Assembly: GCA_016213945.1 (NCBI GenBank)
Contig: JACQZF010000048.1
Location: 1 to 33,853, forward strand
Length of the DNA stretch: 33,853 bases
DNA from: Nitrospirota bacterium
Lineage (GTDB): Bacteria; Nitrospirota; Thermodesulfovibrionia; UBA6902
Reading direction: 5' to 3'
The notes under the pieces were generated by a model that saw nothing but the letters and a program-made list of their open reading frames with translations, was not told the DNA's origin and did not search any database. Below are positions 698 to 11,338 of the stretch, in pieces. Every line of letters starts with the position of its first letter. Position 1 is the stretch's first letter. Position numbers and translations under genes: made by a program.

Positions 698-1090
698 TTA
701 TTTTTTTGTTGTTTTATATAATTCCTTCTTGAACCACTTAACCGCGTCTTTAAAGGAGATTTTTTCGGTAGCCATCCTGAGCGTGAATTGCTCAAGCTCC
801 TTCTGCGAGGCTTCCAGTGAATAGCCGTTAATTCTCAAGAAAATACCGGTAGCTGTTATAGCGGTCCTCTTATTCCCGTCGATAAAAGGATGATTTTTTA
901 TGAGTGATTCCATCAGCGCGGCAGCTTTATGAAAGATATCGGGATAGAGGTCTTTACTCCCGAATGTTGCCCTGGGTCTTGATACGGCGGATTGAAGAAG
1001 ACCCAAATCCCTGACGCCGTGAGCGCCCCCTGTCTCATCAATAAGCCTGCTGTGAATAAACAGCACCTGTTCCGCAGAAAGATATTTCAC
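698..1090 (-). CDS. doc: Fic/Doc family toxin (death-on-curing type)
   Basis: A 130-residue protein of normal Doc length. The active-site motif HPFIDGNKRT at 67-76 matches the Doc version of the Fic motif, HxFx(D/N)(A/G)NK. Family members transfer phosphate or AMP to a target: Doc from phage P1 phosphorylates elongation factor Tu, while other Fic proteins AMPylate. The N-terminal segment (LSAEQVLFIHSRLI) and HGVRDLGLLQSAV also fit Doc. The start overlaps the last codon of the upstream AbrB-type gene by 4 bases, so the two are co-translated as an antitoxin-toxin pair. The motif is intact, so it is probably active. The exact target is unknown. Confidence 0.93.
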   Translation of the reverse strand: MKYLSAEQVLFIHSRLIDETGGAHGVRDLGLLQSAVSRPRATFGSKDLYPDIFHKAAALMESLIKNHPFIDGNKRTAITATGIFLRINGYSLEASQKELEQFTLRMATEKISFKDAVKWFKKELYKTTKK

Positions 1091-1335
1091 TTTTTTGCAA
1101 GCTCTTTGAGCGCAGGTTCATACTTCTTTATAAATTCGTTCACCTGTGAAACAAACTCCCTGTCAACACCTTTAGGATATTTCTTTTTCCTGACGGGCTC
1201 AACTATTATCCTTGATTTGTCCTCATCAAGTTTTACATCCACATCCGAGCCGACTGACAGATCAAGCTTTTCAAGGACGTCTACGGGGATGGAAACCCCC
1301 CGGCTGTTTCCTATTGAACATATTTTCCTGTGCAT
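1087..1335 (-). CDS. AbrB/MazE-type antitoxin
   Basis: A small protein with an N-terminal AbrB/SpoVT swapped-hairpin DNA-binding domain (SIGNSRGVSIPVDVLEKLDL, about residues 7-26) and a charged C-terminal tail (RKKKYPKG onward) that should bind and neutralise the Doc partner. I start it at ATG 1335, not the GTG at 1341, because GGAGG is spaced 5 bases before that ATG; this gives 82 residues. It lies directly upstream of the doc gene and overlaps it by 4 bases. Proteins of this class usually repress their own operon, and a candidate operator lies just upstream. Confidence 0.9.
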   Translation of the reverse strand: MHRKICSIGNSRGVSIPVDVLEKLDLSVGSDVDVKLDEDKSRIIVEPVRKKKYPKGVDREFVSQVNEFIKKYEPALKELAKK

Positions 1336-1352
1336 TAACACCTCCGCAAAAT

Positions 1353-1371
1353 GTTATAACATGATTATAAC
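1353..1371 (-). promoter_or_regulatory. Candidate operator and -10 box of the antitoxin-toxin operon
   Basis: On the minus strand GTTATAATCAT is followed directly by GTTATAACATT. These are two near-palindromic boxes spaced one helical turn (11 bp) apart, about 18 bases before the antitoxin start. The first box contains a TATAAT (1369-1364). I see no good -35 box. The overlap of two symmetric boxes with the -10 element is what an autoregulating AbrB-type antitoxin would be expected to bind. That binding is inference. Confidence 0.5.
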
Positions 1372-1397
1372 ACAACCCCGCGCCTTGCCCTTTTGCT

Positions 1398-3122
1398 CTA
1401 TTGAGCTTTTGCTTTTTTCAATCTCTTCATCAATGCGCTATACCCCAGCGTATTCAAAACATCCTTCTTCTCCGCCCAGCCTCTCCGTGCGGTGCCGATG
1501 CCGTAAGTCATAAAGTCAAACTGGAACGTGACGTGGGTGTCTGTATTGATCGCAAGCGCGATTCCAATTTCTTTTGCTTTCTTGACATACATGTCACTCA
1601 AGTCAAGTCTCAGCGGATAGGCGTTTATCTCGATTGCAGTACCGGTTTCTTTTGCGGTTCTTAAAACTTCTTCCATATCAACTTCATACGCGTCGCGCTC
1701 TCCGATAAGTCTTCCGGTCGGATGGGCGATGATGGAGACATACGGGTTTTTCATGGCGGAGACAAGCCGCTTTGTAATTTGTTCCTTAGACTGTCTGAAC
1801 CCTGAATGTATGGAGGCGATGACTATATCAAGCTTCTTCAAAACCTCATCGGGATAATCCAGCGTCCCGTCACTTTTTATATCCATCTCCGTGCCGGAGA
1901 GGAGTTTGAAGTCGTTTAATTTTTCATTCAGCGCCTGTATCTTTTTATTCTGCTCAAGCACCTGCTCGATGCTCAATCCTCCGGCTACGCCGAGCCCTTT
2001 TGAATGGTCTGTTACCGCAAGATATTCGTAGCCTCTCTTTTTGGCGGCCTCAATAAGCTCCGCAATGTCGTGGCTTCCGTCGCTGTCAGTGGTGTGCACA
2101 TGGAGGTCGCCTTTTATGTCCTTCAATTCAATAAGCTTCGGCAGATCGCCTTCAAGGGCGGCCTCGATCTCTCCGGTGTCCTCCCTCATTTCAGGAGGGA
2201 TGTACGGCATACCAAGTATTTTATAAACATCTTCCTCATGTTCTCCGCCGAGTTTCTTGTCCGTCTTGACATCGAAGATGCCGTACTCATTTATCTTCAG
2301 TCCCTTTCTCACCGCCATCTCGCGGAGCCTTATGTTATGCTCCTTGCTGCCGGTAAAATAAGCCAGCGCCGCGCCGAACGACTCCTCCTCCACAACCCTC
2401 AAGTCCACCTGAATCCCTTCAGCGGTGATAACGCTTGATTTCGTCGGCCCCTTCATGAGCGCTTCCTTTATCTGCGGCAGATGGACGAATACATCCATCA
2501 CTTTATGAGGGTCTTTTGAAGTCGCAAGTATGTCAATGTCATGTATTGTGTCCTTCCAGCGCCTGAGGCTTCCCGCAATGCTCAATTTATTAATGAAAGG
2601 TTTTCCCTTCAGCTTCTCCACAATCCCTTCGGCAACCGGCAGCACGCGTCCCAGGGGGAAACGTCCAGTATGCCGCTTGATCATCGCAATCCCCTTGAGG
2701 ATGTTCTCTTCTGTCTTCGCCTGAATGCCGGGAAGGCCTTTCAGCTTTCCTTCCTTCGCGTATTTCTCAAGATCGTCCACATCTTTAACATGAAGTTTGT
2801 CAAAGAGGAGCTTCGCGGTCTTTGGGCCAAGACCCGGCACGGAGAGGAGGTCAACAAGGCCAGAGGGCACCTCCTTTTTTAATTCATCATAGAACGTTAA
2901 ATGACCTGTCCCGACATACTCATGGATCTTGCCAGCAAGGTCAGCACCGATGCCCGGAATTTCCTGTAATTCTTCCGCGGATATTTCCGTGACGTCCTTA
3001 GCAAGTCCGTCAATGTTCTGCGCGGCGCGCCTGTAAGCGCGTATCCTGAAAGGGTTGTCACCTTTGATTTCGAGAATGTCAGCGATGTCGTTGAAGATCC
3101 TGGCGATCTCCTGATTTTTCAT
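1398..3122 (-). CDS. polX: DNA polymerase/3'-5' exonuclease PolX
   Basis: A 574-residue protein of the usual bacterial PolX length. The N-terminal helix-hairpin-helix region (about 1-90, with IPGIGADLAGKI) is followed by the polymerase X core (about 95-310). That core carries SVPGLGPKTAK and the nucleotidyl-transfer motif GSLRRWKDTIHDIDIL, whose two Asp bind metal. The C-terminal PHP domain (about 335-574) keeps its metal ligands: DLHVHTTDSDG, VTDHS, GTEMDI, IASIHSG, AHPTGR and NTDTH. PolX fills short gaps in base-excision repair, and the PHP domain gives 3'-5' exonuclease activity. It follows nth on the same strand, separated by a 29-bp palindrome, which makes a DNA repair pairing plausible. 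Confidence 0.97.
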   Translation of the reverse strand: MKNQEIARIFNDIADILEIKGDNPFRIRAYRRAAQNIDGLAKDVTEISAEELQEIPGIGADLAGKIHEYVGTGHLTFYDELKKEVPSGLVDLLSVPGLGPKTAKLLFDKLHVKDVDDLEKYAKEGKLKGLPGIQAKTEENILKGIAMIKRHTGRFPLGRVLPVAEGIVEKLKGKPFINKLSIAGSLRRWKDTIHDIDILATSKDPHKVMDVFVHLPQIKEALMKGPTKSSVITAEGIQVDLRVVEEESFGAALAYFTGSKEHNIRLREMAVRKGLKINEYGIFDVKTDKKLGGEHEEDVYKILGMPYIPPEMREDTGEIEAALEGDLPKLIELKDIKGDLHVHTTDSDGSHDIAELIEAAKKRGYEYLAVTDHSKGLGVAGGLSIEQVLEQNKKIQALNEKLNDFKLLSGTEMDIKSDGTLDYPDEVLKKLDIVIASIHSGFRQSKEQITKRLVSAMKNPYVSIIAHPTGRLIGERDAYEVDMEEVLRTAKETGTAIEINAYPLRLDLSDMYVKKAKEIGIALAINTDTHVTFQFDFMTYGIGTARRGWAEKKDVLNTLGYSALMKRLKKAKAQ

Positions 3123-3148
3123 AGGTAAAGTATAACATCAATTCTGCG

Positions 3149-3177
3149 GTAGGGGCGGGTTTAAAACCCGCCCCTAC
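3149..3177. repeat. 29-bp perfect palindrome between nth and polX
   Basis: A 14-bp arm starting GTAGGGGCGGGTTT is followed by one A and its exact complement. There is no T-run directly beside it, so it is not a standard terminator. A diverged copy (about three quarters identical, same length) lies inside queA at 15820-15848, so this is a dispersed repeat. Confidence 0.85.
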
Positions 3178-3182
3178 ATTTA

Positions 3183-3848
3183 CTATCTGTGAATCGTTAC
3201 TCCGACCTTCCCGCAATATTTTTCAATGGCGCATTTGCTGCAAAGAGGAGAGATCGGCCTGCAGATGCCCTGGCCGAATGCGACGAGCAGGCCGTTTATT
3301 TCGAGCCAGTATTCCTGAGGGAGTTTTTCACGGAGGGCGAATTCGGTTTGTTCAGGCGTCTTTGTTTTTACATAACCCCAACGATTGGTTATTCTATGCA
3401 CGTGGGTATCGACGCAGATTCCCGGTTTCTGGTAGCCGAGGGTGATGACGAGATTCGCGGTTTTTCTGCCGACGCCTTTCAGCTTCATCAGCTCATCCAG
3501 ATCATCAGGGACTTTTGAATTGTAATTCTCGATCAGCGTATTGCACAGCTCTTTGATCCTCAGCGCTTTTACTTTATAAAACCCGACCGGATAGATCGCC
3601 TTCTCAATTGTCTTCACCGAAAGACGCGACATGGTCTTCACATCAGACGCCAGATTGAAAAGCCTTTCAGAAGCTGCGCCGGTGGTCCTGTCCTGTGTGC
3701 GCAGGCTCAGTATGCAGGAGATGAGGACTTTAAACGGGTTCCTGTCCCTGAAGGATTGCTGCACTATGCTTTCAAGCCACGGTACATCAAGCCCGCTTAC
3801 CTGCTTTTTCAATTGAGGCCACAACTTATGTATTGCTCGAGTGTCCAT
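3183..3848 (-). CDS. nth: Endonuclease III
   Basis: A 221-residue DNA glycosylase/AP lyase that removes oxidised pyrimidines. The helix-hairpin-helix LKGVGRKTANLV contains the catalytic Lys, and VDTHVHRI contains the catalytic Asp. The C-terminal [4Fe-4S] site is complete, with Cys spaced x6, x2, x5 (CRPISPLCSKCAIEKYC). Length and motif order are standard for Nth. It lies between rlpA and polX on the same strand with no strong terminator seen on either side, so it may share transcripts with both. The ribosome binding site is weak. Confidence 0.96.
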   Translation of the reverse strand: MDTRAIHKLWPQLKKQVSGLDVPWLESIVQQSFRDRNPFKVLISCILSLRTQDRTTGAASERLFNLASDVKTMSRLSVKTIEKAIYPVGFYKVKALRIKELCNTLIENYNSKVPDDLDELMKLKGVGRKTANLVITLGYQKPGICVDTHVHRITNRWGYVKTKTPEQTEFALREKLPQEYWLEINGLLVAFGQGICRPISPLCSKCAIEKYCGKVGVTIHR

Positions 3849-3877: not shown

Positions 3878-4618
3878 TTAATTATTCGAAACTATGATCG
3901 TGCTGTACCCTTCATAGGCAAGTTTTGCCGCAACGGAATAGGCGTTCTTGTATTCCCTGAATTCACCCATTCTCACCCTGAAGAATTTTTGACCGTTTAC
4001 ATTGGCAGTCGTAATGTAAACATCGCTGTATTTTAATTCGAGCCCCTTTTTAAGACGGTCGGCGTTTGACTGCTCAATGAATGAACCAACCTGAATGGTC
4101 AGGCCGCCGGATGACGCGACAGGTTCAAAGGGCAATCGCTTGGCGTAACGCATGTCCCTTCCGAGATATACTATCTTCACAGCGCCGACGCCTTTTCCCG
4201 TAAGGCCGATCTCTTTTGCGGCCCCATAGGAGAGATCGAGGTCCCTGCCCCAGATAAAAGGCCCCCTGTCGTTGACGACCACCTCAACGGATCTGTCGGT
4301 ATCGGGATTTGTAACGCGCAGCTTCGTCCCGAAATCATAAGTCTTGTGCGCGCACGTCATGCCGTACATGTCGTATCTCTCGCCCGATGAAGTCGGCTTG
4401 CCGTGAAAATCAGGCCCGTACCATGAGGCAGTAAGATAATCTTCCCCTGTACGAGGCTTGTTTTCTCTATGAGGGAAAGGGGCGCAGGAGAAGAGGAGAA
4501 GGGTAAGGAGGATGGCGAGATACTTTGCCGACGGGTTTATCAAGCTTTTTTCAGTCTCCCGATTCCCTTTTTCGTAATTGACTTCGGGCATCTTGATCCA
4601 CTGATATTGGTACCTCAC
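3878..4618 (-). CDS. rlpA: RlpA-like septal lytic transglycosylase lipoprotein with SPOR domain
   Basis: The N-terminal hydrophobic stretch ends in LLLFSC, a lipobox, so the mature protein should be a lipoprotein. It is followed by a double-psi beta-barrel (about residues 62-150). [18 protein letters not shown] and NDRGPF are typical RlpA motifs, including the conserved Asp. A SPOR domain, about residues 172-246, binds glycan strands without stem peptides at the division site. RlpA family enzymes cut such naked glycan. The GTG start overlaps the clpB stop, so translation is probably coupled. ATG 4591 is an alternative start. Its place at the end of a heat-shock operon is unusual but may be read-through. 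Confidence 0.93.
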
Positions 4619-7224
4619 ACCTCCAGCTCCGCCTCGACTATTCTCCCGAAGACCAGCGTGTCTCCTTCCATGTCGACTTCCACGACATTGCCTTCCTTGA
4701 AGGTGCCGTCAAGGAGTTTTGTTGCAAGCGGGGTGAGGACCTCTTTCTGGATGGCGCGCTTTAACGGGCGCGCGCCGTAGACCTGGTCATATCCGATTTC
4801 CGCGAGATACGCCTTTGCCTTGCCGGTCAGGACGATGTTGACGTTCTTGTCCCTCAGGTATTTCTTCATCCTCTCGATCTGTATATCAACGATATTCATC
4901 AGCAGTTCTTTTGTAAGCGCGTGGAATATGATTATCTCGTCAACCCTGTTGAGGAACTCAGGCTTGAAGAACTTTTTCAATTCCTCCATCACGCCTTTGC
5001 GTATCTGGACTTCCTCGATCCATTCGGTCAGCATTTCCTGAATGTGCTGGCTTCCGATGTTCGACGTCATGATGACAACAGTGTTCCTGAAATCCACAGT
5101 CCTTCCATGTCCGTCCGTAAGCCTTCCGTCATCAAGCAATTGCAGAAGCACATTGAATACTTCAGGATGCGCCTTTTCCACTTCATCAAAGAGGATTACC
5201 GCATACGGCCTTCTTCTTACGGCCTCGGTCAATTGACCGCCCTCGTCATAACCGACATATCCCGGAGGCGCTCCGATAAGCCTTGAGACGGTATGCCTTT
5301 CCTGATACTCGGACATATCAACCCTTATCAGGGCGTCTTCAGCGTCAAAAAGAAATTCAGCGAGCGCACGCGCGAGCTCGGTCTTTCCGACACCTGTGGG
5401 GCCGAGGAAGATGAATGAACCGATTGGCCTGTTGGGGTCCTGAATGCCTGCCCTCGCCCTTCTCACCGCATCCGAGACGGCCTTTATCGCCTCGTCCTGC
5501 CCTACCACGCGGAGCCTCAGACGCTCTTCCATCTTCAGGAGTTTTTCAACCTCGCCCTCAAGCATCCTGCTGACTGGAATGCCTGTCCATTTTGAGACGA
5601 TCTCCGCGATGTCTTCCTCGTCAACCTCTTCCTTGAGCATCCTGCACTTACCCTGTTGAAGGAGTTTATTGTTTTCCTCATCAAGCCTCTTCTGAAGATT
5701 CAGAAGCATTCCGTATTTCAATTCAGCGGCCCTGTTGAGGTCGCCTTCTCTCTCCGCCTTTTCAGCGCCGAGCCTTGTGCGCTCGATCTCTTCCTTGATC
5801 GAGCTTATCTTTCCTATCGCCTCTTTTTCCCTCATCCACTGGGCCTTGAGGCTGTTGCGATTTCCGGTAAGCTCCGCGATCTCTTCATTGATGCGTTTAA
5901 GCCTCTCCTTTGAAGCCTCATCTTTTTCCTTCATCACGGCCTGCTTCTCGATCTCAAGCTGCCTCAATTTTCGTTCAAGCTCGTCGAGCTCCGCAGGCAT
6001 ACTGTCTATCTCCATCTTCAGTCTCGACGACGCCTCGTCAATGAGGTCAATCGCCTTGTCAGGCAGAAACCTGTCGGCGATGTACCTGTGGCTTAAAACT
6101 GCCGCGGCCACAAGCGCGGAGTCTTTTATCTTTACGCCGTGATGGACTTCGTAACGCTCTTTCAATCCCCTGAGGATGGAAATGGTATCTTCAACGCTCG
6201 GCTCTTTGATATGAATAGGCTGGAATCTCCGCTCAAGCGCAGGGTCTTTTTCAATATGCTTCCTGTATTCCGAAAGTGTAGTCGCGCCCACGCACCTGAG
6301 GTCGCCTCGCGCGAGAGCCGGCTTGAGCATGTTTGACGCATCAATCGCGCCTTCCGCAGCGCCTGCGCCTACGACTGTGTGGAGCTCGTCAATAAATAAG
6401 ATCACTTTGCCCTGCGCCTCTTCGATCTCTTTTAAAACCGCCTTGAGCCTTTCCTCAAATTCCCCTCTGTATTTTGCTCCTGCAACAAGCGCTCCCATAT
6501 CAAGGGAGACAACCCTCTTGTCTTTCAGGCTCTGCGGTACGTCGCCTGACGTGATCCTCTGAGCAAGTCCTTCGGCAATCGCTGTCTTGCCGACTCCAGG
6601 TTCTCCGATCACAACAGGGTTATTCTTTGTCCTGCGTGAAAGCACCTGTATGACCCTTCTGATCTCCTCGTCTCTTCCTATGACTGGGTCGAGCTTGCCC
6701 CTCTTTGCGAGGTCTGTTAAATCTTTGGCATATCTCTTCAACGCCTGATACTTGTCCTCAGGCGAGGGGTCTGTCACGCGTTGCGCGCCCCTGATCTCAC
6801 GCATCGCGGAGAGGAGTTTATCATCAGTGACGCCATGCCGTTTGAGGACCTTCTCCGCGCGGTTTTTAGTCTTCAGTATCCCAAGGAGCAGATGTTCAAC
6901 GCTCACATATTCATCTTTTAAATGTTCAGCCTCTTTAAAGGCGCTCTCAAAGACGTTCTTCAACTCCTGTGTAATATACAGTTGTCCGACAGGCGTGGAG
7001 CCAAGCACCTTCGGGAATTTTTCTATCTCGGCGTCAACCTCTTTCCTTAGCGCGGGGACATTAATCTTCAGCGAATTTATGATCTCAAGCGCGACCCCCT
7101 CCTCAAGCAGGACGTGGAGCAGGTGCTCAACATCGACCTGCTGGTTGCCCTTTTGCTGGGCGAAATCCTGCGCCTTCTGGACCGCCTCCTGGCTTTTTAT
7201 TGTGAATTTATCCGATCTCATCAC
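4615..7224 (-). CDS. clpB: ATP-dependent disaggregase ClpB
   Basis: 869 residues, full ClpB length. In order: the Clp N domain repeats (about 1-150), AAA1 with Walker [10 protein letters not shown] and Walker B ILFIDELH, and the coiled-coil middle domain (about 405-525) that distinguishes ClpB from ClpA/ClpC. AAA2 follows with GPTGVGKTE and [15 protein letters not shown], then the C-terminal D2-small domain. ClpB works with DnaK/DnaJ to pull apart aggregated proteins in the cytoplasm. Its start overlaps the hspR stop by 4 bases (ATGA). The operon dnaJ-hspR-clpB implies heat-induced expression relieved from HspR repression. Confidence 0.98.
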
Positions 7225-7562
7225 TCCTCCTCAAATAACTGTCTCATCCTTTTCTGAAATTTATTTCTTATGTCCCTTTCAAGGTAATCCATCATTTCGT
7301 CCATCTCCCGGTTGAGTGTCTCCATCCTGTGCTTCATCCTGAGAATGATGTCCACTCCGGCCCTGTTGACGCCGAGGTCTTTTGTCAGGCTCAGGATCGT
7401 CCTTATCCGCTCAAGGTCTTCCTGGGAATAAAGCCTTGCGCCGCCGACCCTTTTGGGATGAAGGAAGCCCTCCCGCTCATACAACCTCAAAGTCTGGGGA
7501 TGGATATTGAACATCTCGCAGACCACACCGATCATAAATAACGGACGCCTTTTATCGCGCAT
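7221..7562 (-). CDS. hspR: MerR-family heat-shock repressor HspR
   Basis: A 113-residue protein with a MerR-type winged helix at the N-terminus (about 11-80; [18 protein letters not shown] and [12 protein letters not shown]) and a helical coiled-coil tail. HspR binds HAIR sites to repress dnaK/dnaJ/clpB genes, with DnaK as co-repressor in actinobacteria. Placement between dnaJ and clpB, with 2-base spacing to dnaJ and 4-base overlap with clpB, is diagnostic. A matching HAIR-like operator is found upstream of dnaJ at 8684-8704. No dnaK is present in the window, so the partner must lie elsewhere. Confidence 0.95.
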
Positions 7563-7564
7563 GA

Positions 7565-8626
7565 TTATTCCCCCGGCCCGTACGCCTTTGCCAGTTCATG
7601 CAAGGCCTCTTTGGTTTTGTCAGAGACATTCTTAGGGACAACTATTTTTATCACTGCGAACTCGTCGCCTTTTATTCCCGTCTTCCTGTTTGGGATCCCT
7701 TTGCCTTTCAGTTTGAACTTTTTTCCGCTGTCCGTTCCGGGCGGCAGGGTCATTGTTACTGTGCCGTCGAGGGTAGGCACCTGGATCTTCCCGCCCAACA
7801 CCGCTTCGCTGATGGTGACCGGGACATCCGCGTAGATATTGTTCCCCTCTCTTTTAAATACATGATGGGACCTCACGCCCAACTCAATATACAGATCACC
7901 GGGCGGCCCGCCTTGCGCGCCGGGGCCTCCCATGCCTTTCAGCTTTATCCTGCTGCCGGTCTCCGCACCGGGGGGGATCTTAACTTTTATGGTCTCAGCG
8001 GACACAGTAGTGCCTTTGCCTCTGCAGGCCTTACAGGCTTTTGTCGCAACCCGTCCGCTGCCATTGCACGCGGGACAGGGCTGGCTCATCCTGAAGATGC
8101 CCCGGCTCTGTTTCAATGAGCCTGCGCCTTTGCAGCGGGAACATGTCTGCGAGTCTTCAGCGCCGCTGCCGCCGCAGGCTTTGCACGGCGCCTCTCTTGT
8201 CAGGCTTATCGGTTTTGTCACTCCTTTGTAAGCCTCTTCAAGTGAAATATCAAGCGACGTAACAAGGTCATCGCCTTTCATCGGCATGTCCTCCTGCCTG
8301 AAATTTCTGAACAGGTCGGAAAAAATATCTTCGCCGCCGCCGCCGTGCCCGAAATCAAAGCCGCGCCTGCCGGACCCTTCAAAACCCTGGCCCGGCTCAA
8401 ACGCGGCCTTTCCGAACTGGTCGTATTCAGTCCTCTTTTTAGAATCGCTCAGGACTTCGTACGCCGCATTTATCTCCTTGAATTTTTTCTCTGAGTTTTT
8501 GTCGCCCGGATTCAGGTCAGGATGGTGCTTGCGCGCGAGCCGTCTGTACGCCTTTTTGATTTCCTCAGCAGAGGCGGCTTTGCTGACGCCGAGTGTTTCA
8601 TAATAATCTTGAGTTGCGGTAGACAT
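7565..8626 (-). CDS. dnaJ: Chaperone DnaJ with zinc-finger domain
   Basis: 353 residues. The J domain at the N-terminus carries the HPD tripeptide ([10 protein letters not shown]) needed to stimulate DnaK. A Gly/Phe-rich linker (about 75-105) follows. The zinc domain has four CxxCxGxG units ([32 protein letters not shown]), then the C-terminal substrate-binding domains. It is a little shorter than E. coli DnaJ (376) but all domains are present. It is the first gene of the dnaJ-hspR-clpB(-rlpA) operon, behind a consensus promoter with an HspR-type operator. Confidence 0.96.
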
Positions 8627-8674
8627 AATATTTTTCTTCCTTCCGGTTATCGACTGATGCCTTCTATAAAATAA

Positions 8675-8704
8675 ATAATATCACTTGATATAAACCGTGT
8701 CAAG
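8675..8704 (-). promoter_or_regulatory. dnaJ operon promoter with overlapping HAIR (HspR) operator
   Basis: On the minus strand TTGACA (8703-8698), a 17-base spacer and TATTAT (8680-8675) form a near-perfect sigma-70 promoter, with predicted start near 8668 and about 40 bases of leader. The + strand of the same segment (8684-8704) reads CTTGATA, 7 bases, TGTCAAG. This has the 7-7-7 architecture of the HspR-associated inverted repeat (CTTGAGT-N7-ACTCAAG), with five of seven bases symmetric in each arm. The operator covers the -35 box and most of the spacer, so bound HspR would block polymerase. HspR is encoded two genes downstream, closing the feedback loop. Confidence 0.85.
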
Positions 8705-8913
8705 ACATGTTATGCAACACCGCATTGAAGCAGCCCTTCTTTTAAATCATATATCACAGATTACGGTGCGAAACAAGATATGTTGTCTTATGACATCGCT
8801 ATGCCTTCACGTTATGAGAGTTGTCGCACTTTTTTCTGTTGCGCATTACCGCCGTTTGCGTATGATATTTTCCATCACCCCAATTTTCTTTTAAGGAGAA
8901 TTAGAAAAATACC

Positions 8914-9018
8914 ATGGCGGCAAATAACTTCAGGGAAAAAGCAAACTTCATCTGGTCAATCGCTGACTTGCTGCGCGGGCATTATAAACAGGCTGACTAC
9001 GGCAAGGTGATTTTTTAG
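8914..9018 (+). pseudogene. Remnant: N-terminus of type I restriction methylase (HsdM-like)
   Basis: A 34-codon frame with a good ribosome site (AAGGAG, 8892-8897) encodes MAANNFREKANFIWSIADLL and continues to DYGKVIF before a TAG. This matches the very conserved start of HsdM/N6-DNA methylases, which normally continue after GKVI with a run such as LPFTVLRRLDC. The gene stops abruptly there, so only the 5' end survives. The upstream 190 bases have no recognisable gene; TTGCGC and TATGAT at a 16-base spacing (near 8840-8866) could be its old promoter. The orientation is opposite to the flanking dnaJ and aldolase genes. Confidence 0.75.
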
Positions 9019-9039
9019 CAATGGGAAAGGAGTCGAAAG

Positions 9040-9198
9040 ATGACACGTATTAAACCGACGCGTTTGTTTCACTGGCTGTTGGCGGTCGCTTTCCTGGCGG
9101 CCTTCGGCATAGCGCAATTTGTGCCGGACAAAAACCCGCTGTTTTCCGGGGTATCGACCCGCCTGCATACAAAAAAGCGGTCCAGGCTTAACACCTGA
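9040..9198 (+). pseudogene. Remnant: N-terminus of cytochrome b561-like protein
   Basis: A 52-codon frame starting 21 bases after the hsdM remnant, with its own ribosome site (GGAAAGGAG). The first 36 residues (MTRIKPTRLFHWLLAVAFLA, then a run to DKNPLFS) look like transmembrane helix 1 of di-haem cytochrome b561, with the conserved His in RLFHW. After that the homology-like character ends, and the frame runs into the terminator of the neighbouring aldolase gene. A complete b561 would be about 170-180 residues with four helices. This is therefore a 5' fragment, unlikely to be functional. Confidence 0.65.
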
Positions 9199-9205
9199 AC
9201 CCGCT
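9171..9205 (-). terminator. Intrinsic terminator of the aldolase gene
   Basis: On the minus strand, AGCGGGTTCAGG, a TGTTAAG loop and CCTGGACCGCT pair as a stem with one small internal loop. TTTTTTG follows directly. It lies about 55 bases past the aldolase stop, in the right orientation. Confidence 0.75.
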
Positions 9206-9224
9206 TCTCTATTTCAGTTTAAAA

Positions 9225-9256
9225 CACACCCCTAACCCCTCTTGTTAGAGGGGAAT
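9225..9256. repeat. Palindromic repeat (CCCCTCT / AGAGGGG)
   Basis: A 7-bp stem, CCCCTCT-TGTT-AGAGGGG (9236-9253), preceded by CACCCCTAA. It belongs to the same general kind of C-rich/G-rich hairpin as those inside queA, queH and ruvC. It lies between the aldolase stop and its terminator. Confidence 0.65.
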
Positions 9257-9260
9257 AATG

Positions 9261-10619
9261 TTACCCTAAAATATCATCCGGCACTTTCTTTTCGACGACT
9301 ACCGGCTTGACGGTCTTATTCACAAGGTCTTTTGATCCGGCAACCTTCAATTCTTTGAAGAGCAATTCGAATTTGTCTTCAAGCTCTTTCATGATCGGGC
9401 CTTTTACATTTGCCGGAAGGTCCCACCACTTTTTCTTCAAAGTGCCGAAGCCTTTTTTGCGCGTGCTGTAGAAGAACTGCTCTTCGGTCTGTCCTTCTTT
9501 TCTCTCTTTTGCGCACTCGGTTTTTAAATACGCATAAATTTCATCTCTGAATGACGCGGGCAGCGACTTGCTGTCGTACATGATGTTCTGAAATCCTGTT
9601 GCAAGGTGCACTTCAGATGTGGTTGTCTCAGGGAATGTGTGGAACGCTTCGTCGGGCAGTGTTGACGCGCCGTGCTGGACCGCGCCTGAAAGACCGTATT
9701 CCTTTCTCGCGACTTCGGAGATCTTTCTGAGCGTGTCAAAGTCGATCTTTACCTTTGCGAGCGTGCCGTCAGGAAGAACAACGCCGCCGTGCGCGGTGCC
9801 TGTCTGGACGCTCATCTTGCTTATGCCCTTGCCTTTGTAAGTTTCTTTGAAACCGTCAAGATATGCCCTCAGTTCTTCGGGCGTGCTGTTCTTTCCGCCG
9901 ATCTCTCCGATCTCTCCTCCGACGGAAACGGTCACTCCCTTTGGCTCAAGGCCCCTGATATATTCCGTCAGCTCAGCGGCGTTTGCAAAGTTCGGCCTTT
10001 GCTGTTCTTTCAGCGTCGGCTTCTCAAGGTCAACGAGCGTGGATGAGTCAATATCGATATTGTAGAATTCACCTTCAATGGCTTCTTTGATTAGTCCCTT
10101 GATGTAGTTCTTTTCAAGGTCAGGACCTGACAGATAGTTTTTCCTGATGAGCTGGAAATGGTCGCCCTGGATAAAAACAGGGCCGGTAAAACATTCCCTG
10201 ACTGCGGCAGCAAGAATAACAGCGGTATATTCAAGAGGCTTCTGTTTTGTGTAGCCGATCTCCGAGCGGGCTATCTCGAATATGAAGGCGCCGATATTTT
10301 TCTCGAGCGCCTTTTTAAAGATGACCCTTGAAGTGTCATAGGTAAGCCCCCTGATGTTCATCGCGGGCACTGTGAAGCCGGGATAATTTCTCCCCATCTC
10401 TTCATAAAGTCCCTGAATGGATGAAGGCACTGCGCCCATCTGTTTGGCTATCTCAATGACGAGCCTCTGCAATGACTTCCTCTTTTCTTCGTCCTGGTTG
10501 AAGACCGCCTCGTAAATGAGGTCATCAATGAGACCTCTTACCGCGGCAGCATCTTTGACCTGCACCTTTCCGCCGGTGATGCTCACGCAGCTTTTCAGCT
10601 TTGATAATACCTCTGACAT
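9261..10619 (-). CDS. Class II (zinc) fructose-bisphosphate aldolase family protein, long form
   Basis: 452 residues, clearly longer than ordinary class II aldolases (about 280-360). The family core is visible: GDHFQ at 152-156 supplies the catalytic Asp and a zinc His, GTAHGG (His 278) and AVQHGAST (His 316) supply further zinc ligands, and VGGEIGEIGG sits in the expected place. The first 80 residues and the last 80 or so are extra; the C-terminal part is Lys-rich. Class II aldolases cleave or form fructose-1,6-bisphosphate or related sugars; the true substrate here is not certain. It has a strong ribosome site (GAAGGAGG), its own terminator and no operon partner. Confidence 0.85.
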   Translation of the reverse strand: MSEVLSKLKSCVSITGGKVQVKDAAAVRGLIDDLIYEAVFNQDEEKRKSLQRLVIEIAKQMGAVPSSIQGLYEEMGRNYPGFTVPAMNIRGLTYDTSRVIFKKALEKNIGAFIFEIARSEIGYTKQKPLEYTAVILAAAVRECFTGPVFIQGDHFQLIRKNYLSGPDLEKNYIKGLIKEAIEGEFYNIDIDSSTLVDLEKPTLKEQQRPNFANAAELTEYIRGLEPKGVTVSVGGEIGEIGGKNSTPEELRAYLDGFKETYKGKGISKMSVQTGTAHGGVVLPDGTLAKVKIDFDTLRKISEVARKEYGLSGAVQHGASTLPDEAFHTFPETTTSEVHLATGFQNIMYDSKSLPASFRDEIYAYLKTECAKERKEGQTEEQFFYSTRKKGFGTLKKKWWDLPANVKGPIMKELEDKFELLFKELKVAGSKDLVNKTVKPVVVEKKVPDDILG

Positions 10620-10773
10620 ATTGCCTCCTTCGTTTTAAATTGGATTAATTCAAAATGGGACTGCAAATAACGTTTATGCACTATGAAAAAATATCACAGA
10701 GAAATCATATCAAAAACACTTCATTCTATCAACTTCCGAGCAATGTCTGCTTTCCCCCGTCTCATGCCAGTAT

Positions 10774-10850
10774 GTCATTCCCGCATGTTTTTAGCGGGAA
10801 TCCAGTAGTTTTTAGTCTCTGGCTGCCCGATTAAAAACTTCGGGCATGAC
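10774..10850. repeat. GTCATTCCCGC...GGGCATGAC dispersed palindromic repeat
   Basis: Starts GTCATTCCCGC and has GCGGGAATCC 9 bases later. A second inverted pair (CTGCCCGA / TTCGGGCATGAC) closes it, so the outer ends are GTCAT and ATGAC. Copies of the same design lie at 16260-16282, 17316-17383, 24957-25021 and 33673-33703. The rest of the 10620-10882 gap shows no gene. Confidence 0.8.
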
Positions 10851-10882
10851 GAACAAAGGACGATAGCGTTTTAATAATGTTA

Positions 10883-11338
10883 TTATCTTCGTGACATCTG
10901 CTTCAAATACCTGAAAAAGTTCCAGTAATACACCAGGCTCGACAGGACCATGGCGCCGCCGAAACCGATATAGATGACAGAGAGATACGGTTTTGGTATG
11001 GACGAATGTCTCAGTGTCACTCCCATGAAGATCATGAACAGGATGATCAGGTAGCTTTTCCATGATTGAAATGCAAAGACGCACACCTTGTCTTCTTTTG
11101 AAAGTATGCGGTCGATATTCTTGTAAAGCAGTTTCAGGAACATAAAGTGATGAATGATGAGAGAGAGAATGAATCCTGCCGAGCCGAGCCAGACGGCGTT
11201 TTGCAATGTTGTCTCTGACAGCCAGCGAACAGCGAGCCTGCAGAGCATTATGCCGACAATGCTCCAGATAATCCCCGCAAGGACAATCAAAACTCTTTTA
11301 TCAACTGTCGGGTTGAATCTGTCAAACCTGGACCGCAT
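10883..11338 (-). CDS. Uncharacterised four-helix membrane protein
   Basis: I do not recognise the family. From ATG 11338 the protein has 151 residues; the longer frame from 11359 adds seven. I choose 11338 because AAGGAA lies 6 bases before it. Hydrophobic segments lie at about 16-36, 48-70, 90-108 and 115-138, so four helices in the inner membrane are likely, with short charged ends (RSRFDRFNP, LKQMSRR). FAFQSWKSY and YYWNFFRYLKQ are aromatic-rich. No catalytic motif is visible. It lies alone between a repeat and the dgkA-PAP2 gene, on the same strand. Confidence 0.7.
   Translation of the reverse strand: MRSRFDRFNPTVDKRVLIVLAGIIWSIVGIMLCRLAVRWLSETTLQNAVWLGSAGFILSLIIHHFMFLKLLYKNIDRILSKEDKVCVFAFQSWKSYLIILFMIFMGVTLRHSSIPKPYLSVIYIGFGGAMVLSSLVYYWNFFRYLKQMSRR

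Follow-up and report, generated by a model that had tools for sequence, protein, structure and literature searches.

What brings the beginnings of two unrelated genes together between dnaJ and an aldolase gene, on the strand opposite to both? The window analysed here is a stretch of 33,853 bases, the start of the 152-kb contig C14 in the 3.5-Mb draft genome G000. Between the minus-strand genes dnaJ and fba it holds two short plus-strand open reading frames (ORFs), which a sequence-only reading had described as two truncated gene starts, each with its own ribosome site and opposite in strand to its neighbours. That description is confirmed: the ORFs, Pfam and a sister genome, G004, agree on it. 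G004, itself a draft in contigs, shows about 90 to 94% identity. With a probability of roughly 0.9, we propose that two loci exchanged partners in this lineage and that the scar proper, at approximately 8705-9174, is their meeting point. The features on which the argument turns are as follows.

7565-8626, minus strand: dnaJ, the left neighbour of the scar.
8627-8704, minus strand: dnaJ promoter region (dnaJ-hspR-clpB operon), with TTGACA-17-TATTAT found by promoter scan (8703-8675).
8705-9014, plus strand: left end of a former type I restriction (hsd) island, by homology with G004.
8839-8871, plus strand: former hsdM promoter, with a copy of a 35-base box (TTGCGC...TTTGCGTATGATATTTT) that is two bases shorter here.
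8914-9018, plus strand: ORF of 34 amino acids, the hsdM stump.
9010-9019: first joint, from the hsd locus to the b561-fba locus; ATTTT is present on both ancestral sides.
9020-9147, plus strand: 5' stump of a cytochrome b561 gene, with ribosome site and 36 codons, without 12 bases (VWDV) that are present in G004.
9040-9198, plus strand: ORF of 52 amino acids, which starts with the b561 stump.
9148-9174: unplaced filler of about 27 bases, at the second joint, where the b561 body is deleted.
9175-9260, minus strand: fba terminator region, with a hairpin (9179-9201) and a dispersed repeat (9229-9253).
9261-10619, minus strand: fba, class II fructose-bisphosphate aldolase-like (PF01116), intact.
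10734-10897: second synteny break, holding part of a high-copy repeat (10774-10853).

An Rfam scan over the window gave nothing at gathering thresholds. On the dnaJ side, an inverted repeat, CTTGATA-N7-TGTCAAG (8684-8704), overlaps the -35 box; this repeat resembles HAIR, the operator of HspR. The same operon contains a gene of MerR type by Pfam (7221-7562), presumably hspR. On the fba side, the short dispersed repeat at 9229-9253, CCCCTAACCCCTCTTGTTAGAGGGG, was found by BLAST at ten further places in G000.

The left ORF codes, at 8914-9015, for residues 1 to 34 of a type I HsdM protein, and is preceded by a purine-rich ribosome site read by eye (AAGGAGA, 8893-8899). It matches HsdM_N (PF12161) with an E-value of 1.4e-5, which passes the curated cut-off, and 98 of 101 bases are identical to the hsdM start of G004, so that the hsdM-like identity given to this piece beforehand holds. 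Only positions 2-26 of the 135 of the HsdM_N profile are covered, and the stop codon arises at the joint. In G004 and G005 the hsdM genes run on past the point where the stump ends; with a complete HsdM of 583 amino acids in G005, the stump is clearly truncated. The N6_Mtase catalytic domain is absent, as the ORF stops at codon 34 and the body of HsdM gave no match in G000 at an E-value of 1e-20 (it was present in 5 of the 10 genomes searched). The stump thus resembles a type I hsdMSR operon, such as G004 has with its hsdM, hsdS and hsdR, in the start of HsdM_N, but differs from it in having 34 codons and no methylase, specificity or restriction domain.

The homologous arrangement can be read in G004, where the window block 4613-9014 is found on contig C14 (L029, up to 6786) at 92.7% identity over 4,404 bases. 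There, the equivalent of 8631-9014 lies beside dnaJ and is followed by hsdM, hsdS, a RhuM-family gene and hsdR, with hsdM-S-R divergent from dnaJ. Homology of the dnaJ promoter with four of the five other genus members that were read stops at about 8703-8712, the fifth (G001) giving no match; this endpoint is where the hsd island begins on the left. When G000 was searched with the DNA of the G004 hsd operon and its right flank, the stump was recovered, together with a long match on contig C85, a 66% match on contig C72 that lies inside the RhuM gene and, outside these blocks, three short ones of 38 to 99 bases. Of hsdM-S-R, G000 therefore keeps the start only, besides the 66% match to the RhuM gene of the operon. 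The G004 hsdM (L029 6686-8442) is no longer intact either, with a frameshift behind approximately codon 52 and one in-frame stop, and the hsdR of G005 is split into two ORFs, so that the restriction system was already failing in the relatives. The hsdS and hsdR genes of G004 are long open frames despite the broken hsdM.

The right ORF begins, behind a second purine-rich ribosome site read by eye (AAAGGAG, 9026-9032), with 108 bases (9040-9147) that code for residues 1 to 36 of a prokaryotic cytochrome b561. Its Pfam match to Ni_hydr_CYTB, 'Prokaryotic cytochrome b561' (PF01292), is below the cut-off (E-value 7e-4, 19.8 bits compared to 30.1) and spans positions 5-39 of 179. The doubt is removed by the match to the gene of the relatives: 97 of the 108 bases are identical to the start of the G004 gene when a 12-base gap is set aside (82.7% identity with the gap counted), and this gene, of 245 residues, matches PF01292 over positions 1-179 with an E-value of 1e-22. 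The proposed cytochrome b561-like identity is thereby borne out. A search for full-length genes had been suggested together with these identities, and it succeeded for both pieces, the hsdM and b561 genes of G004 being much longer than the stumps. Cytochrome homology stops at 9146-9147, the last 16 residues of the 52-residue ORF being unrelated sequence. Compared to the full domain, the stump is without everything past codon 36 and without four near-start codons.

The full b561 gene was found in G004 only, among 10 genomes; the sole match in G000 is the stump, 39 residues long in this match, and a more distant relative (69%) occurs in G036 in a different setting. Relative to G004, about 670 bases of the b561 body are deleted, up to the fba terminator, and homology resumes at 9175-9176, which corresponds to L030 3814-3815. 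For the filler between the two ends (tested at 9147-9168), no match beating shuffled sequences was found in L030 3101-3830, in the hsd part of L029 or in the rest of the window. Among the 11 codons of the stump that differ from G004, 8 are changed synonymously, where a flat expectation gives a proportion of 0.24 (P approximately 0.001, or approximately 0.01 when the expectation is raised 1.4-fold). This excess indicates that b561 remained a full gene through most of the divergence and was lost recently.

We then asked how the two halves are joined. A DNA search with 8630-9205 was conducted on 61 genomes (G000 itself, nine of the same genus, and more distant ones); 14 of them matched, and G000 alone had the segment in one piece. 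The exact joint sequence was not found in a contig collection, from which the window's own genome is possibly absent. Positions 9020-9146 and 9175-10733 match contig C6 of G004 (L030), with 94.5% identity over 1,571 bases from 9175 on and 98% identity for fba. On this contig, the full b561 gene is flanked by PFK2, a phosphofructokinase gene (PF00365), and by fba. The two flanks that are joined in the window thus sit on separate contigs of G004, C14 and C6. At the first joint, the alignment with L029 ends at 9014 and that with L030 begins at 9013-9020.

If two loci exchanged partners, the other two ends should also be found together. Such a reciprocal joint is present on contig C85 of G000, where PFK2 runs into the DNA directly behind hsdR. 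Bases 1-912 of this contig correspond to L030 1937-2846, which covers the 3' portion of PFK2 together with its flank, and bases 953-3232 to L029 14521-16839, whose first base lies no more than 6 bp past the hsdR stop. The PFK2 gene lies partly on contig C84 and partly on C85. The ends of these two contigs have exactly 141 bases in common, an overlap of the kind left at a branch of the assembly graph, and PFK2 is therefore whole across both contigs. The longest common words near the two joints are of 6 and 7 bases, for compared stretches of 81 to 100 bases. Such short words fit end joining with little homology, and not a false join by an assembler.

The polarity of the change was assessed from the neighbours of dnaJ and fba in the relatives. 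In G001, G005 and G006, that is, three of the five other genus members read, dnaJ adjoins a DUF2064 gene; in G002 and G003 it adjoins neither DUF2064 nor hsd. The PFK2 gene adjoins fba in G003, G005 and L059 (G003 and G005 recur as L060 and L066 in the set of 80 fba loci). About 14 kb separates PFK2 from fba in G001, G006 has the two genes on different contigs, and no match to PFK2 was found in G002. A PFK2-like match occurs at 49 of the 80 fba loci, although some of these matches are only 27 to 29% identical and are probably other genes of the family. No b561 match was found at any of the 80 fba loci, within up to 5 kb on each side, some flanks being short. The orders dnaJ-DUF2064 and PFK2-fba, together with the absence of b561 from the fba loci, indicate that the G000 order is derived, and that the insertions of hsd next to dnaJ and of b561 next to fba predate the split between G000 and G004. 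As gene order is much shuffled among the five other genus members, as in this group at large, we can only infer the ancestral order.

Placed in this context, the marks of a breakpoint scar are all found here: flanks that lie apart in a close relative, a reciprocal joint, and a derived order. The ancestral order would have been dnaJ (leftward), hsdM-S-R (rightward) and DUF2064 (leftward) at one locus, and PFK2 (rightward), b561 (rightward) and fba (leftward) at the other. The breaks would have fallen within hsdM after codon 34, directly behind hsdR, and between PFK2 and b561. Crosswise rejoining would then have placed dnaJ and the start of hsdM next to b561 and fba in the window, and PFK2 next to the DUF2064 side on C85, with the loss of the remainder from hsdM to hsdR, about 7.7 kb, and of about 110 to 160 bp ahead of b561. 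An inversion would be the simplest form of such an exchange, and a translocation would give the same joints. The b561 body up to the fba terminator may have been deleted later or in the same event.

The sequence-only reading had found it odd that both pieces should be 5' ends. The two 5' ends are real, but the oddness disappears once gene orientation is considered: since hsdM was read outwards from dnaJ and b561 was read in the direction of fba, a head-to-tail junction of the two loci kept the start of each. Pseudogene stumps occur at bacterial chromosomal rearrangement breakpoints, and the present case resembles them in having truncated genes exactly at synteny breaks and the complementary joint elsewhere. 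In principle nothing sets it apart from them; that both stumps are 5' ends follows from gene orientation. It is a known kind of event. Literature searches on breakpoints and gene fragments, hsdM pseudogenes, HspR and HAIR, and miniature inverted-repeat elements returned, in the portions of the records available, nothing on this locus among the matches listed.

The causes put forward earlier, from the sequence alone, were successive insertions and deletions, capture of short foreign pieces, or an assembly chimera. Insertions and deletions were right in kind; the two others fare less well. A false contig, put together from separate regions of a single genome or from two strains, deserves consideration in a draft assembly of 101 contigs with 3.72% contamination, where the joint is seen in just 1 of 61 genomes. 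However, the same assembly has the reciprocal joint on a different contig, and the sides share only about 5 bases at the joint, with no common word near either joint approaching the usual word length of assemblers, which is far above 6 to 7 bases. Moreover, a false join would not have made the further deletions of 12 and about 670 bases in the b561 stump, nor does the rest of hsd or of b561 appear anywhere in the assembly. We consider a chimera improbable on these grounds.

A mobile element or an integron-like system might instead have picked up the two 5' pieces as short foreign sequences, independently of any rearrangement. In favour of this, each piece has a ribosome site and is a 5' end, and hsd operons and the b561 gene are patchily distributed. 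Each piece is nevertheless still attached to its G004 neighbour, hsdM to dnaJ and b561 to fba, and the reciprocal joint accounts for both at once, so that we give capture very little credit. It is just as hard to believe that the ORFs are functional short genes, encoding a 34-residue HsdM-like peptide and a 52-residue membrane protein with one helix. Their ribosome sites are intact and the changes in the b561 stump are mostly synonymous, but the synonymous excess can be put down to the time when the gene was still complete. Residues near the start are missing through the 12-base deletion, the tail of the longer ORF is filler, and the short forms are absent from the other genomes searched (60 others, or 9 others for b561). 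An exchange of partners between two loci thus remains our preferred reading, with the stumps as probable dead remnants, perhaps transcribed; nothing supports a function for them.

Gene order tends to be fluid in this group, and the scar is accordingly one of several. A second break lies beside fba: homology with contig C6 of G004 ends again at 10733, and 10898-16223 matches contig C5 of G004 from 35709 on. On C85 of G000, about 1.15 kb past the block from behind hsdR, another part of the same G004 contig is found, reversed (27945-26000). The second pair of breaks may therefore also have its complement on C85; the 7.8 kb of G004 C5 between the two matching parts are unaccounted for. Contig C48 of G000, upstream of rsuA, was considered as the far side of G004 C14, but no match was found in the stretches compared. 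The repeat within the second break (10774-10853, partial; L030 6196-6350) belongs to an interspersed high-copy family of about 155 bases with inverted-repeat character. It makes up 42 of the 46 matches listed for G000, spread over 38 places (both strands match at 4 of these), and 26 of the 42 matches listed for G004.

The box in the former hsdM promoter is a by-product of this analysis that is more interesting than the scar and worth a second look. Its pattern is TTGCGC-TTTAYCGCTGTNT-TTGCGTATGATATTTT, in which the spacer is conserved as well as the hexamers, and conservation extends to the positions that the pattern leaves open. With up to two mismatches, 18 sites (L139-L156) were found in 10 of the 61 genomes, in three families of the order, compared to 0 sites in the 61 genomes for the reversed pattern, used as a control. 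The window's own copy is outside the 18 because it is two bases shorter. By BLAST, the box precedes hsdM in G000, G004, G005 and G034; it was not found before hsdM in G009 or G038.

The genes that follow the 18 boxes are unrelated and mostly of defence type. Five are ORF6N genes: Pfam identifies four, and the fifth, L154, shares its PADLOC families with L141. Pfam also assigns three HNH genes, and AIPR, Shedu SduA and DUF6978 are represented by one gene each. The rest are a protein whose HSDR_N match is weak and under the cut-off, a RecQ helicase, which on its own does not count as a defence gene, and three proteins that match nothing in Pfam. Of the two remaining boxes, one lies at the end of a contig and the other is followed by no clear ORF. 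The same box and leader stand, on contig C34 of G000, before no clear ORF and, on contig C26 of G004, before an open Shedu SduA gene (L144 and L145); G000 may have lost its SduA. Tentatively, the box could be a shared operator or a sigma-specific promoter, which would place scattered defence genes under one regulator. A literature search on ORF6N with promoter in Nitrospir- found nothing.

Taken alone, the locus is of little importance, and adjacent 5' stumps such as these need no exotic capture mechanism. For genome scanning it carries a caution, since one close relative is enough to settle such scars. What it documents is the loss of a dying restriction operon through rearrangement.
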